40,903 nucleotides of DNA from Prosthecobacter debontii (GTDB lineage Bacteria; Verrucomicrobiota; Verrucomicrobiia; Verrucomicrobiales; Verrucomicrobiaceae): NCBI GenBank assembly GCA_945869695.1, contig CAMBPV010000017.1, forward strand, positions 1 through 40,903. The letters are read 5' to 3'. The position numbers and the translations under genes are program-made. The notes beneath the pieces were generated by a model. The model was given only the letters and a program-made list of their open reading frames with translations, did no database searches and had not been told where the DNA came from. Positions 81 to 7,200 of the stretch are shown piece after piece. Each line of letters opens with the position of its first letter. The first letter of the stretch is position 1.

Positions 81-398
81 TTACTCCTCGGTGGGTTGCC
101 TGCGGCCGTTTTCCATTCCTGTTTTTAGGATGAAGGGGAAGTCGTCGGGGATGTCGAGGACTTCGATGTTGAGGTCGGGAAGGGCGTCGGGGAAGCGGTC
201 GGCGAGGCGGCGTTTTTGATCGGGCTCCATGACGAGGATGAGGTCGGCCCAGAGCAGGAGTCTCTCGGTGACACGACGGCGGGCGGAGGGGCTGAGGCCG
301 GCGCTCTGGACTTCGACCCGGGGATCGTTTTGATAGAGCGCCTCGGCCGTGGGGCTGCGCCATTGATTGCGAGAGCAGAGGAAGAGGAGCTTGAGCAT
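81..398 (-). CDS. Small protein-tyrosine-phosphatase-like protein (COG4551 type)
   Basis: 105 residues, last gene of a four-gene minus-strand unit. The N-terminus is a hydrophobic beta strand running straight into Cys8-x5-Arg14 followed by Ser (CSRNQWRS), the phosphate-binding loop signature of low-molecular-weight tyrosine phosphatases. A later stretch ending LDIPDDFPF matches the short predicted-phosphatase group of about 105-110 residues. I chose the ATG at 398 because the P-loop strand must lie close to the N-terminus; a longer open frame to 548 overlaps the upstream gene and adds low-complexity residues. It starts 10 nt after the upstream stop codon. The substrate is unknown: small members of this family lack the usual C-terminal catalytic DP pair, so it could be a binding protein instead of an active enzyme. 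Confidence 0.8.
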   Translation of the reverse strand: MLKLLFLCSRNQWRSPTAEALYQNDPRVEVQSAGLSPSARRRVTERLLLWADLILVMEPDQKRRLADRFPDALPDLNIEVLDIPDDFPFILKTGMENGRRQPTEE

Positions 399-408
399 GA
401 GACTCGGG

Positions 409-816
409 CTAAGAAAGGAATCGGGCTCGGATCTCGGGGGTGGGGACCCAGCAGGTTTCCTTTTTTCCAAACCAACGGTAGCGATTCCGGGCGATGAGAC
501 GGTAAGCGGCATCGCGAATGAAAGGGGGCACGATGCGGAAAATAGCAAAGAGGGGCCAGGGCTGGGTCAGCTGGGCGGCGACCTTTAAGGCGGCGCTGCT
601 GCGGGTGTAAACGGTGTGATTTTCGATGAGCACAAAGGTGTCCATCGAGGGAGGGAGCTTGGCATCGGCGAGGAGTTGCTGCCCACGGTCGGACTGCTGG
701 GAGGCAAAGGTGAAGCGCTGGGCGGGATCACGCTCGATGATGAACTGCACGGAGGAGCAGCAGAAATTACAAACGCCATCAAAGAGGATGATGGCGGTGG
801 GCTCGGGGGATGGCAT
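409..816 (-). CDS. DCC-family thiol-disulfide oxidoreductase (DUF393)
   Basis: 135 residues. The family signature DGVCNFC is at the N-terminus (Cys16-x2-Cys19, after the strand AIILFDG), followed by a thioredoxin-like pattern and a C-terminal segment with aromatic and basic residues (RNRYRWFGK). DCC proteins are predicted to exchange thiols and disulfides through the CxxC pair; few have been studied. The gene lies 27 nt after the HTTM-like membrane gene and 10 nt before the phosphatase-like gene, so the three are very likely cotranscribed. DCC domains are often found next to, or fused with, HTTM membrane domains in other bacteria, which supports both calls. The ATG at 816 leaves a short Pro-rich leader and no signal peptide, so the protein is probably cytoplasmic. 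Confidence 0.88.
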   Translation of the reverse strand: MPSPEPTAIILFDGVCNFCCSSVQFIIERDPAQRFTFASQQSDRGQQLLADAKLPPSMDTFVLIENHTVYTRSSAALKVAAQLTQPWPLFAIFRIVPPFIRDAAYRLIARNRYRWFGKKETCWVPTPEIRARFLS

Positions 817-843
817 GGAGGTGGATGCGACGGTCGGCGTGGG

Positions 844-1752
844 TCACGCCTCGCCTCGCCACATCTTGAGCATACCGGGGATGTTTACGCAATAGATGAG
901 AACGGCGATCATGTGGGCTTCGAAGTTCAGATTCATGAGCCGACTGATGCTGAGGTGGAGGGCGATGATGGCAAGGCCGCCGATGAAGGCCCAGCGTCTG
1001 TTGATCAGGATGACGAAGCCGAGCAACTCGATGAGCAGCCCTCCTCCGAAGACGAGGCGCGCGATGTTCGGATTCTCCAAAAGGAAGGTGGTGACGTCCT
1101 GAAGCCACTTCGGCGGCAGGGTGAGGTCGGTGTAATAATCGGAGAAGTGAGTCTTCAGGAGTTGGACGGCGAGGAAGGGTGCTTTGGCGATCCAGAGGCC
1201 GTCGGAGTTCACGATCTTCACCAGTCCGCAGACGACATAACCGGCAGCGATGACGGTGAGGGTGGCAAAAACAACCTGACGATGGCGCTGGAGATCGGGA
1301 CGGAGGGCGATTTTGAAGTTGAGTCCTTTTTCATCCTTCCGTGGCCAGGCGTAAACGATGAACTGCGCGAGGCCCATGAGCGTGATGAGCTGCCAACTGT
1401 GATTGATGGCGCCCTGGGAGTTGATCAGGGTGCCGATGACGGTGGCGAAAAAGACGGTGGGCAGAAGTCCCAAGGCGGGAAAGAGGCCGACGACGTAGAG
1501 CACAAGAAAAGCGATGACGCCGTATTGAGCATTGGCTCCGGGCGGGTGCTGGCCGAGCCAGGTGAGATCAAAGAGACGAGCGAGCCCATTGGGGAATTTT
1601 TGCTCGGTGTAGGGAGCGGTCTCCCATTTGATGTTGATGAAGGCCAGCGCAGCAAATCCGGCACGCATGATGAACATTTCAAGGGTGCTGAGCTCGAAGG
1701 GCAGAGGTCTCCACCATTTGGACGGTGGGGTGTGGGGGGGCGAGTCACTCAT
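844..1752 (-). CDS. HTTM-like multi-pass membrane protein
   Basis: 302 residues with about seven or eight hydrophobic segments (roughly residues 22-40, 75-110, 120-140, 162-182, 237-255, 258-275, 280-296). The arrangement, with the C-terminal pattern of a helix ending LLIELLGF, a basic turn, and a helix followed by HLSISRLMNLNFEAHM, resembles the HTTM domain, the bacterial relative of vitamin-K-dependent gamma-carboxylase, and more loosely DoxX-like proteins. No enzymatic activity can be assigned from sequence. Its ATG overlaps the stop of the upstream gene in an ATGA (1749-1752), a sign of translational coupling. The DCC oxidoreductase follows 27 nt downstream. A redox role paired with the DCC protein is inference from gene order. 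Confidence 0.65.
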   Translation of the reverse strand: MSDSPPHTPPSKWWRPLPFELSTLEMFIMRAGFAALAFINIKWETAPYTEQKFPNGLARLFDLTWLGQHPPGANAQYGVIAFLVLYVVGLFPALGLLPTVFFATVIGTLINSQGAINHSWQLITLMGLAQFIVYAWPRKDEKGLNFKIALRPDLQRHRQVVFATLTVIAAGYVVCGLVKIVNSDGLWIAKAPFLAVQLLKTHFSDYYTDLTLPPKWLQDVTTFLLENPNIARLVFGGGLLIELLGFVILINRRWAFIGGLAIIALHLSISRLMNLNFEAHMIAVLIYCVNIPGMLKMWRGEA

Positions 1753-2228
1753 GAGGCAGGGAGGGTGTATTCAGCCAGCTTCTCGGAGGGGGAGTCGTCA
1801 GCGGATACGCCGGCTCGGAAGGTGCGCACATGAAAACGGAGGGCTGTGGTGCCGGGGGGCACGGCTTTGTGAATGAGCCGTGTGACGAGGGAGTCGAGGA
1901 CTGCTTTGCCAGCCTGCGCGCGCTCCTGGGGTGTGGCGGTGTCGGAATCTCGATCACTCTTTTGGGTGAGGGTGCCGAGCTCTTTCTTGAACATTTTTTT
2001 CGAGGTGCCAGAGCTTGTTTTGAACAGGGGCTTCATGGCGATGGGTTTGTCATTTTGATCCGTGACAAAGGTGACATCTGCTTCTTCGCTGATGTTGGAG
2101 TACATCGGAAAATTGGAGAAGGGGAACTCCTCTTTGATGAGGAAGAGAGCGAGAACGAGTGCCGTCATGGCCGGGAAGGGGAGACGGGACCCGAAAAGGC
2201 GAAGCCGAGAGCGCCAAGGTGAATCCAT
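1749..2228 (-). CDS. Membrane-anchored protein of unknown function, HTTM partner
   Basis: 159 residues from the ATG at 2228 (a TTG at 2246 and an ATG at 2168 are alternatives; none has a clear ribosome binding site). A basic N-terminus is followed by one hydrophobic segment (about residues 20-31) and the motif FPFSNFPMYS; the rest is soluble and rich in Lys, Thr and Asp, ending in beta-like segments (TALRFHVRTFRAG). This suggests a single-pass anchor with a C-terminal domain. I do not recognise a named family. The FPMYS stretch, close behind a membrane helix, together with the ATGA overlap with the HTTM-like gene, suggests a dedicated partner of that protein. It is the first gene of the four-gene unit, and its start codon overlaps head-to-head with an open frame on the other strand at 2227. 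Confidence 0.6.
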   Translation of the reverse strand: MDSPWRSRLRLFGSRLPFPAMTALVLALFLIKEEFPFSNFPMYSNISEEADVTFVTDQNDKPIAMKPLFKTSSGTSKKMFKKELGTLTQKSDRDSDTATPQERAQAGKAVLDSLVTRLIHKAVPPGTTALRFHVRTFRAGVSADDSPSEKLAEYTLPAS

Positions 2229-3245: not shown

Positions 3246-4280
3246 ATGGAGCCTCCTTATTTGCATGGCGGTCCTCTCGGGCGGGCTCAATTCAAGACGC
3301 AGCCTGAGGATTTTCAGGTGGAGGAGTTGCTCGGCTTCGAGCCCTCGGGCGAGGGTGAGCATTGTCTGGTGTGGGTGGAGAAACGGGATCTGGATAGCAA
3401 TGCAACGGCGGCGAGGCTGGCGGATGCGATCGGTTTGAGACGTCGGTTGGTGAGTCACTGCGGACTGAAGGATCGTCATGCGGTGACGCGGCAGTGGTTC
3501 AGTCTTCACCTGCCGGGCCAGGCATCGCCGGAGGGTTCGGCCTTGGAGTCGGAGGGGATCAAAGTCCTGCGCATCACGCGAAACACGCGAAAATTGCGAC
3601 GGGGGATTCATTTGGGGAATCGATTCATCATTCGTCTTCGTCAGCCCGACTTCGATGCCGAGAATGCGGCCGAGCGGTGGGCGCACATCGCCAGCAAAGG
3701 CGCGCCGAATTTTTTTGGCAGTCAGCGTTTTGGCAATGAAGGGCGCAACGTGGAAAAGGCGCTCGCTATGTTTCGCGGAGAGTTTGAGCCGCGTGATCGT
3801 TTGCTGCGTGGGATTTTGCTTTCGGCGGTTCGGAGTCATTTGTTCAATGCGGTCGTGGCAGAGCGCATGGCGCGTGGTTCATGGGATCGGGTGTTGTCGG
3901 GTGAGGTGTTCGGCTTTCCGGATAACGGCACGCTGCTCTTGATCGGAAATCAGCGTGGGGATGAGGCGGAGCGGTTCGAGAAAGGCATCGTGGAGATCAC
4001 GGCTCCGATGTGGGGGGGCGGTGATCTGCCAAGTGCGGGGGAGACTCGTGAACTGGAGACGGAGGTGATGTCACGTTTCCCCGAGTTCACGGCCGGACTG
4101 GAGGCCGCGGGGCTGAGGCAAGAGAGGCGCGTGATGAGACTGCGTCCCACGAACTCCGATTTTCTCAGCCTCGAAGGCGGTGATCTGCAATTGAGCTTTG
4201 ATCTCCCCCGAGGGACTTACGCCACGACGTTGCTGAGAGAATTGGCCACACTGGATGAGCCGGATCGTTCCGAAACCTAG
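3246..4280 (+). CDS. truD: tRNA pseudouridine(13) synthase TruD
   Basis: 344 residues, typical of TruD. It isomerises uridine 13 in certain tRNAs. The catalytic motif GLKDRHA is at residues 73-79 with the nucleophile Asp76. The second family signature NFFGSQRFG is at residues 155-163. The N-terminus has the expected FKTQPEDFQVEEL segment. AGGA lies about 10 nt upstream of the ATG and may serve as a ribosome binding site, one of the few visible here. The gene follows the methyltransferase by 9 nt. It ends tail-to-tail with the RND permease gene: the sequence CTAG at 4277-4280 supplies the TAG stop codon of both genes on opposite strands, leaving no intergenic space. Confidence 0.95.
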   Translation: MEPPYLHGGPLGRAQFKTQPEDFQVEELLGFEPSGEGEHCLVWVEKRDLDSNATAARLADAIGLRRRLVSHCGLKDRHAVTRQWFSLHLPGQASPEGSALESEGIKVLRITRNTRKLRRGIHLGNRFIIRLRQPDFDAENAAERWAHIASKGAPNFFGSQRFGNEGRNVEKALAMFRGEFEPRDRLLRGILLSAVRSHLFNAVVAERMARGSWDRVLSGEVFGFPDNGTLLLIGNQRGDEAERFEKGIVEITAPMWGGGDLPSAGETRELETEVMSRFPEFTAGLEAAGLRQERRVMRLRPTNSDFLSLEGGDLQLSFDLPRGTYATTLLRELATLDEPDRSET

Positions 4281-7200
4281 ACCGAGTTGAACCTCTTCTT
4301 TTTCCGGAAGAGGCCAGTGAAGTCATCGACGGCGAGGTAGCAGAGAGGCACGAGGAAAAGGGTGATCACCGTCGCGAAAAGGCTGCCGTAGCCCATGGCC
4401 ACCGAGACAGGCGTGAGAAACTGAGCGTGGGTGCTTTGGGCTCCATTGCTGAAAAAGAAAGGCGCGAGCTTCGAAAGCCAGGTGCCGTCGAAGATGAGAG
4501 GAACGAGGCCGAAGAAGGTGGTGATCTGAGTCAAGAAGATGGCCCGAAAACGGGAGGCTCCGCCCATTTGAACGGCCTCGCGCGTGCTCGCACCCTGGGA
4601 GCGGCGTTCATTGATTTCATCGACTAGCACGAGGGTGTCATTCACCACGACTCCGCAGACGCCGAGGATGCCAAAGAGGCTCATGATGCTGAGGGGGAGA
4701 CTGTGTGCCATGTGGCCGATCACGGCACCGACGATTCCAAACGGCACAACGAGGAGCACGATGAGAGGCTGGGAGTAACTTTTGAATGGAATGGCCATCA
4801 TGCCATACATGCCGGCGAGGACGATGAGCAATGAAATGAGCATCTGCGATTGGCTCTCCTTTTGACGGCGGGCCTCGCCTTCGAAGCTCCACTGGATGTG
4901 ACCATGGCTTGAGAGCAATTGATCCAGAAAGGTGCTGATCTCAAGACGGAGCGAGGCAACGTCGGTGGTGAGCTTGTCCACATCCGCCGTGATGTTTAGG
5001 GCGCGTCGGCGATCGACGCGCTTGATGCTGGTGAAGCTTTTGGCCACGTTCGCCTCTGCGACTCGATTGAAGGGAACTTCGAGGCCGGCAGCAGTGCGGA
5101 CCCGCATGGTGTCGAGGGTGGCGAGATTCTGCCGATTGGCTTTGGGCGAGCGCAGCATCACTTTGACCTCGTTCCTTCCGCGCTGGATGCGCTGGACTTC
5201 ATCCCCATAAAAGGCCTGTCGCACTTGTTTGGCGAGATCACTGACGGTCACGCCAAGCTGCTGCGCCTCGGGTTTTAAACGGAGTTGGATTTCATTGCGG
5301 CCGGAATCGAGGGAGTCGTTGATGTCAAAAAGCGCGGGATACTTAGCGAGGTGTTCTTTGATCTTGCCCGACATGTCAAGGAGCTCACGCGGGTCTGTGC
5401 CGGTGAGTTGAATATCGATGGGATCGCCGCTGCGCATGATTTCGGCGCGGAAGGTCATTTCCTCGACGCCGACGATGTCACCGATGCGTTTTCGCCACTC
5501 GTTGGACATATCCACGGTATTGGCATCACGGCTGCGCTCCTCGGGCCCGTAAGTTTCCATCATCACGCCGCCGATGTGACTGCCGCCCGTGCTTTTGGAG
5601 CTGCTGCGTCCGTAGGAAAGCGTGGTTCCCACCGTGGAGACGATGTGTCGGATGACGCTCTTGCCATCGGGGCCGACGTATTCCTTCTGCATTTCCACGG
5701 CCAAATCATAGATCCTTTGGATGTGGGCCTCCGTGACCTCGACGGGTGTGCCATCGAGCATGGAGAGCCTGCACTCGATGCGCTCACTGGGCACGCGGGG
5801 GAAGTAAGTGGTCTGGATGCGGCCGCCAAAATAGAGGCCGAGAATCAAAATGAGACCGCCAAACAAAATCGAGAGCGAGGTGTAGCAGTGATTCACAGAG
5901 AACCTGAGGGCGGGCTTATAAATACGACGGACAAAGGCCTGAAGGGCTCCGTCTGAAATCCGATGGATCGGTGCCAGCAAATCTCCGGCGCGCCCGAGAA
6001 AGGGGTGCGCGAGGTGACTCGGCAGGATGAGCTTTGTTTCCAACAGCGCGATGAGCATCACGGCGATGAAAACAATGGCGATGGGCTTAAACATGGAGCC
6101 CCAGTCCGATGAATCCAAGGCCATGGGCATGAAGGCGATGACCGTCGTCAGGACGCCGAAGGTGATAGGCACGGCCATGCGGCGAGTCCCCTCAATGGCG
6201 GCATCCAGCGGGCTCATGCCTCCTTTGCGCAATTGATCGCAGTGCTCGCTGATCACGATGGCGTCATCGACGACGATTCCCAAGACGAGAATGAAGCCCA
6301 TGAGCGAGGAGAGATTGATCGAGACATCCAAATAAGGCATCAGCGCGATGGCACCCATGAAACTCATGACCATGCCGACGGCGATCCAGATGACTGCTTC
6401 CAAACGGAGAAAGAGACCGACGCAAATGAAGACGAGGATGAGACTGCTCTTTGCATTTTGCAGCAGGAGATCGATGCGGCCTTTGACGATCTTAGAGCGG
6501 TCGTTCCAGTAATCCAAGCTCACCCCGCCGGGCAGTTTTTGATTGGTCTCCTTGATATATTCTTTGACCCGCTCTCCGATGGTGATGGCATTTTGTCTGC
6601 CTTCGCGCATGACGGAGATCATCACGCAGCGGCGGCCATTGAGCCGGGTGACGAGGGGATTCTCCGTGAAGCCGTCCACGATCTTGGCGATCTCACCCAG
6701 CGTGATGCGGCTTCCATCTGCACGGGAGAGGAGCGGGATGCGGGCGTAGTCTTCTCCAGTGTAGGCACGGCCACGCGTGCGGAGTGAGACATCGCCTGCT
6801 TCGGTCTGCACCACACCTGCGGGCATGTCGATGGCGGTATCGCGGATGGCTTTGTTGATGTCATCAAGGCTCAGGCCATGTTTCCTCAAGATGTCTTCGG
6901 GGATTTCGATGGCGATTTCCTCATTCCTAACACCGGTGATTTCGGCATGGGAGATGCCGGGTAGGGAGGAGAGTTCATCGCGTGTTTGCTCACCGAGTCG
7001 CTTGAGATCACGCTCCGACATGTCGGCGCTGAGGATAACGGTGATGACGGAATGAAACGAGTCGTCCAACTGAATCACGGGCTTCTCGGCAAGCGCTGGA
7101 AAATTCGGGATGGCATCGACGCGGATCTTCACGTCTTCCATGACTCGACGCGGATCTTCATCCTCATTGACCTCGATAAACACGGTGCCGCCGCTGCTTC

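Follow-up and report, generated by a model that had tools for sequence, protein, structure and literature searches.

A conserved gene pair within a four-gene locus

We analyzed a 40,903-nucleotide stretch of Prosthecobacter debontii DNA, hereafter the window, which is an entire contig (G000:C17); the genome to which it belongs amounts to 4.92 Mb in 333 contigs. Four genes at its beginning, termed A, B, C and D, encode a small single-pass membrane protein, a multi-pass membrane protein, a DCC thiol-disulfide oxidoreductase-like protein and a low-molecular-weight (LMW) phosphatase-like protein, respectively (Table 1). Out of these four genes A and B alone belong together, and we propose that they may constitute a two-subunit membrane enzyme related to GGCX, the gamma-glutamyl carboxylase that acts on human clotting factors in a vitamin K-dependent manner.

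An open reading frame (ORF) check of the window recovered all four genes on the minus strand. A and B overlap by 4 nt (ATGA at 1749–1752), whereas B and C are separated by 27 nt and C and D by 10 nt, confirming the gene coordinates of the original prediction, which was made from the DNA letters and had read the four genes as one unit; beyond D, the gene context ends with the contig. Because homologues of all four genes occur in related genomes (A in 29, B in 28, C in 46 and D in 38 of 57), they are more than chance ORFs. Neither A nor B yielded a significant match in Pfam or NCBIfam.

Table 1 Features of the four-gene locus in the window.
Feature	Position	Strand	Description
Gene A	1749–2228	minus	159 residues; one predicted membrane helix (residues 19–34); C-terminal alpha/beta domain
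FPFSNFPMYS motif of A (residues 35–44)	2097–2126	minus	directly after the helix
Gene B	844–1752	minus	302 residues; multi-pass GGCX/HTTM-like membrane core
H118 codon of B	1399–1401	minus	equivalent of GGCX H160 (alignment)
K179 codon of B	1216–1218	minus	equivalent of GGCX catalytic base K218 (alignment)
H266 codon of B	955–957	minus	equivalent of GGCX H287 (alignment)
Gene C	409–816	minus	DCC thiol-disulfide oxidoreductase-like protein (PF04134)
Gene D	81–398	minus	LMW-phosphatase-like protein (PF01451), CX5R

A and B occur as a linked pair

The search for B returned 110 matches, of which 101 were used for the pairing count after omission of nine second fragments. A was located directly upstream on the same strand in 91 of these, and 90 of 93 A matches were paired; among the ten unpaired B matches are contig ends, one fusion and cases in which A changes faster and was detected later by profile. 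A profile search of 81 neighbourhoods, namely the window and a subset of 80 stretches chosen from the A and B matches, identified B in 80 of them, with A adjoining or fused to it in 78; the two B genes without A are both cut by a contig end. Likewise, A was present at 16 of 17 named loci, a different collection in which several contigs recur that were already counted, and the seventeenth locus is cut. The small single-pass membrane protein, which the original prediction had suspected to be a conserved partner, is thus constantly found with B. The A and B distances were strongly correlated over 74 pairs, a set without fusions and without ORFs beyond the length limits (Mantel r = 0.883, with none of 2000 permutations that high), an agreement that is expected of a linked pair.

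Furthermore, three natural fusions were observed. In L075 and L110 B comes first and A last, corresponding to the order in GGCX, so that A sits where GGCX has its ninth helix and lumenal part; in L119 A comes first. In L110 (G039:C524), the B–A fusion is preceded by a gene A and followed, where the contig stops, by what looks like the beginning of another B.

After merging of fragments, single genomes were found to carry as many as six or seven B copies, and the genome of the window carries six. Tandem A–B–A–B arrangements, which suggest local duplication of the pair, are present in this same genome (L062, G000:C103, 5722–9495) and in a named relative (L191, 2887–6885). An A-like stretch interrupted by three TGA and one TAA codons, with no B seen alongside (L059, G056:C20:78495–78758), is perhaps a decayed pair. 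Within the 57 related genomes B was also present in other families of the order. A phylum-wide search with the B profile, scoring at most eight candidates per genome, detected B in 4 of 288 genomes, all of its own family; given these limits, the absence of B elsewhere in the phylum is weak evidence. Searched against plasmids, neither an HTTM protein nor B gave a match, and PADLOC returned one weak match of B (E-value 0.036) and nothing else.

B resembles the membrane core of GGCX

The profile of B, built from 36 proteins, aligned with 19 HTTM proteins at an hhalign E-value of 2.7e-12 and a probability of 97.6; these alignments used 19 of 20 loci, with L163 omitted due to a wrong-frame ORF. In a single-sequence test, 16 of the 19 HTTM proteins outscored all 58 multi-transmembrane controls, with most probabilities being low. 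B thus contains a membrane core homologous to that of the HTTM family (PF05090). No PF05090 match above the cut-off of 27.7 bits was obtained for B or elsewhere in its genome, and one of the 36 B members gave a match at an E-value of 0.0047. By these profile comparisons, B is a distant HTTM relative and not a Pfam HTTM member, which retains, at a distance, the relationship to HTTM and gamma-carboxylase that had been predicted for the multi-pass protein.

The AlphaFold model of B ends after an eight-helix core and was obtained with a predicted local distance difference test score (pLDDT) of 85.7 and a predicted template modelling score (pTM) of 0.83. A Foldseek search of the PDB with this model yielded ten GGCX chains as top matches, with probabilities of 0.99–1.00 and template modelling scores (by query) of 0.42–0.50. 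Using VIA-align, the 13 best rows were all GGCX, with Z-scores of 10.1–11.8 over 223–251 residues, a range in which, as the tool warns for Z below ~13, matches of helical bundles may lack specificity; the next row had a Z of 5.7. A chance match to GGCX is nevertheless unlikely, given how far the unrelated rows fall behind and given the sequence evidence, which is independent of the model. The alignment pairs residues 8–302 of B with 31–323 of GGCX, and both structure comparisons place the GGCX transmembrane-core fold in the model of B. A sequence search of solved structures with B gave no match. Together, these predictions point to B as what appears to be an HTTM/GGCX-like membrane protein core.

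Other family assignments were considered for B. No DoxX or DoxD model was among the Pfam matches of the 36 B members at E ≤ 1, so the original prediction's preference for HTTM over DoxX holds. DUF6041 was matched weakly by three of the 36 (best E-value 8.1e-4), and an NCBIfam transporter match of one member (E-value 6.5e-4) was judged to be due to chance.

Residues of the carboxylase pocket are conserved in B

The equivalence between B and GGCX residues was derived via L165, a canonical VKGC-type HTTM relative, which aligned with human GGCX at an E-value of 2.4e-51; B was aligned with L165, together with 25 HTTM proteins, at an E-value of 3.6e-11. The resulting pairs of B and GGCX residues are K179–K218, H118–H160, W187–W223, H266–H287, F277–F299 and E242–D263. 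K179, H118, W187, H266 and F277 are invariant in the B proteins of all 74 pairs, and E242 is conserved in 73. Consequently, the catalytic lysine, for which the original prediction had suggested a search, has a counterpart in B, as do the pocket residues H160, W223 and F299.

In the parts of PMC12589487 considered here, K218 of GGCX is described as the base deprotonating vitamin K hydroquinone, H160, W223 and F299 as lining the naphthoquinone pocket, and H160 as also contacting the substrate Glu, whereas these parts give no role for H287.

We compared these positions with those of other HTTM proteins. His occupies the H160 position in 8/8 canonical proteins and in 0/17 divergent ones (L147–L162, L164), although the alignment is least sure around this position, and the K218 position is Lys in 8/8 and 16/17, respectively. 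The H287 position is His in 17/17 divergent proteins. As aligned, B is nearer to the carboxylase at the H160 position than the divergent HTTM proteins examined.

A may supply the missing helix and the pocket-closing loop

The AlphaFold model of A (pLDDT 82.7) consists of a helix at residues 19–34, followed by a domain of three strands and helices. The FPFSNFPMYS loop in between was modelled at lower confidence (blocks of 58–60), and its residues P36, M42 and Y43 are shared by 73 of the 74 A proteins, the remaining one having a gap. As described in parts of PMC12589487, M401 and M402 of GGCX belong to a membrane-embedded linker after helix 9 and wall off the vitamin K pocket from the Glu pocket. 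Reading the HTTM proteins longer than 440 residues by eye, we found an aromatic-x-Met motif after the last helices in 9 of 11, exemplified by RWDMFAP, FSWHMKL and SFSMYSN; the two exceptions have Phe or Leu. M42 of A may therefore be the counterpart of GGCX M401, as judged from the motif.

Based on the fusions, the topology and this short motif, A is probably the ninth helix of GGCX together with the pocket-closing linker, encoded as a separate chain. GGCX itself has helix 9, the linker and a lumenal domain that binds the propeptide in one chain with the core, whereas A is a protein of its own in this family, except in the fusions. Because the N-terminus preceding the helix is arginine-rich, we infer that the C-terminal domain of A is periplasmic. 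A sequence search of solved structures with A gave chance matches at most, and a similarity of A to HTTM C-terminal domains was detected at motif level only.

C and D appear to be incidental neighbours

Gene C is a DCC member (PF04134, E-value 2.7e-30, 106.3 bits against a cut-off of 27.8). Gene D is, by its Pfam match, an LMW-phosphatase relative, weak though above the threshold (PF01451, 25.6 bits with the cut-off at 23.2, restricted to residues 5–46), and the CSRNQWR of its translation fits the CX5R loop. The original prediction had combined both with A and B into one membrane redox or carboxylation module, for which the location on one strand with gaps of just 27 and 10 nt would speak, as would a contig on which DCC and HTTM genes meet (G050:C69).

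The distribution of the genes in relatives, however, does not agree with such a module. Among 70 DCC matches in 46 of the 57 genomes, the copy of the window alone lies within 20 kb of a B match, and the presence of DCC is independent of B (23/28 genomes with B versus 23/29 without; Fisher p = 1.0). Inspection of 20 DCC-centred and 20 HTTM-centred loci revealed no A or B. Similarly, many of the 38 genomes with D have no B, and D was found in only two of the 81 A–B neighbourhoods, namely the window and L089 (G003), in the latter behind a different copy. The 17 named loci contained no C or D match. The closest orthologues of the window's pair share 76% identity in B, and at the three orthologous loci L091, L094 and L095 the divergent methyltransferase gene upstream of A is kept, whereas no C or D match was present within the 1.5–2.7 kb available downstream; in L091, B is followed by a convergent open frame of 478 residues. 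With the genes separating in relatives, we rejected the four-gene module, which we consider highly improbable, and judged C and D to be incidental neighbours of A–B. Gaps as small as 10 and 27 nt may thus suggest operon partners that separate in relatives.

At L089 (5115–7706), a pseudouridine-synthase-like gene and the D homologue come after the A–B copy on the same strand. At G050:C69:22647–23786, the DCC and HTTM matches lie 336 nt apart, both within 702-residue open frames, which makes an HTTM–DCC fusion probable. Scans for promoters and terminators yielded no promoter-like site, compared to 0.6 in shuffled sequences, and seven terminator-like sites, compared to 2.1 in shuffled sequences; one of the seven falls within C on the minus strand.

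A proposed two-subunit, menaquinol-using enzyme

The constant pairing of A and B, their fusions, the predicted fold of B, its conserved pocket residues and the presence of menA lead us to propose that A–B is a two-subunit, GGCX-like membrane enzyme that uses menaquinol and acts on exported proteins, with a probability of roughly 55%. A menA match above the cut-off was obtained for the genome of the window and for 56 of the 57 genomes, and menaquinone is therefore probably made in this organism, as predicted from its gene content. In the proposed mechanism, B would form the membrane core (GGCX 31–323) with a pocket for a quinol, as reduced vitamin K is, in which K179 would serve as the base and H118, W187, H266 and F277 would complete the pocket. 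The helix of A would stand in for GGCX helix 9, and its FPFSNFPMYS loop would shut the quinol pocket in trans, with M42 in place of M401. On the periplasmic side, the C-terminal domain of A may bind or present the substrate. A strong base formed from menaquinol and oxygen would then remove a proton from a residue of an exported protein, and this residue might be carboxylated as well.

Several observations weigh against this proposal. At the structural level, the Foldseek E-values for B were weak (0.022–0.064, none at 0.001), and the VIA-align scores fall within the range of the tool's warning. A had no fold match in the PDB, with a best Z of 4.0, although absence from that list excludes nothing. 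A profile comparison of A with the C-terminal region of GGCX and its HTTM relatives aligned at motif level only (13 columns, E-value 0.0073, probability 5%), and nothing was detected in the comparison with that of the other HTTM group. At the position of N159, which in GGCX holds the substrate Glu, Asn is found in 18 of the 74 B proteins, including the B of the window (N117). Moreover, VKOR was not found in the window's own genome, and its presence in 5/28 genomes with B and 3/29 without (p = 0.47) shows no association. Consequently, VKOR was dismissed as a companion of A–B, implying that the epoxide is recycled otherwise or that it is not the product. Finally, no general substrate gene was found beside A–B pairs among the neighbours inspected. 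These are diverse and include genes for pseudouridine synthase, FKBP, ThiF, sulfatase, DUF1501 and PSCyt2/PSD1 proteins, among others; we speculate that the many paralogues and their varied neighbours would be in keeping with several dedicated substrates. Beside the A–B pair of L085, a gene at 3664–5733 encodes a 689-residue protein without Pfam match at 0.01, with homologues in L090, L103, L105, L134 and L137, so that this family spans one A–B group in six genomes.

The missing VKOR would fit a non-epoxidising role, in which A–B is a quinone-linked redox protein or another membrane protein that has the fold and pocket of GGCX and lacks the base chemistry. Such a function would be consistent with the probable synthesis of menaquinone and would be of the kind seen in TQO (DoxD–DoxA), where a core in the membrane, together with its small subunit, is coupled to the quinone pool. 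However, the Pfam matches of the 36 B members at E ≤ 1 are devoid of DoxX and DoxD models, and Lys at the catalytic-base position as well as His at the H160 equivalent are retained in 74/74 proteins, rendering this explanation rather improbable in our estimation.

Alternatively, A–B might resemble SdpA–SdpB of Bacillus subtilis and mature secreted peptides by cleaving or otherwise modifying them, without carboxylation of the vitamin K type. In the B. subtilis sdpAB genes, a small-protein gene likewise precedes a gene for an HTTM-type membrane protein, and plain carboxylation is weakened by the poor conservation of N159 and the missing VKOR. Against this possibility, neither A nor any of 34 A members matched the SdpA model PF17418 at E ≤ 1, and this model had matches in 0 of 145 genomes of the phylum, with B. 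subtilis being positive. Furthermore, among called ORFs (those below 70 residues were not called), the neighbours of the pairs were not seen to share a gene for a small secreted peptide, and the carboxylase-type His H118 is invariant. We therefore regard an Sdp-like function as unlikely, albeit worth keeping in mind.

Returning to the GGCX-like enzyme, a more specific version would be a native vitamin K-type, menaquinol-driven protein carboxylation by a split enzyme, the site of which is completed in trans by the Met of the FPMYS loop and the copies of which, multiplied to up to six or seven in a genome, each have their own exported substrates. We put this forward tentatively, as an idea that is rather improbable and more doubtful than the general proposal.

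Comparison with known systems

With GGCX and the canonical HTTM protein L165, the A–B pair shares the membrane-core fold and the equivalents of K218, H160, W223, H287 and F299, as well as the aromatic-x-Met motif after the last helix, which A would supply in trans. In contrast, A–B consists of two genes with A before B, the 159 residues of A compare with a large lumenal part of GGCX, B lacks a Pfam HTTM match, N159 is mostly replaced and the genome of the window is devoid of VKOR. The divergent HTTM proteins resemble B in their profile and in the Lys at the K218 position, whereas the H160 equivalent is missing in all 17 of them and many consist of a single chain that has a C-terminal domain of its own.

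The HTTM proteins of genus g13 (L148, L155, L214–L243) are similar to A in carrying TQTSFSMYSNLRSEG, with aromatic-x-Met-Tyr-Ser right after the last helix, but they are encoded as one chain, and no relationship to A was detectable for the domain past the motif. A C-terminal query detected this group in 32 of 189 genomes of the order, and a search of the phylum with the whole L148 gave no match.

SdpA–SdpB is similar in that a small partner gene adjoins the gene of an HTTM-type membrane protein, and differs in that A has no match to the SdpA model. Parts of PMC6818787 describe yitPOM as a paralogue of the sdp genes, and an HTTM protein whose role is given as unclear in the consulted part of PMC9927463 is located in a bacteriocin cluster. 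We found no description of an A–B pair in the open-licence papers searched.

Implications

Most of what is known about vitamin K carboxylation comes from animals, and to our knowledge the role of bacterial GGCX-like proteins is largely unclear. The core of A–B is of a known kind, that of GGCX and HTTM. B represents a bacterial family without a Pfam or NCBIfam match of its own, which keeps residues aligned with the GGCX pocket, has a constant partner and comprises many paralogues as well as some fusions. If the proposed function is true, the pair would show GGCX divided by nature into two parts, one a catalytic core and the other a closing subunit, and the bacteria carrying it would be a place to seek menaquinol-dependent protein modification.

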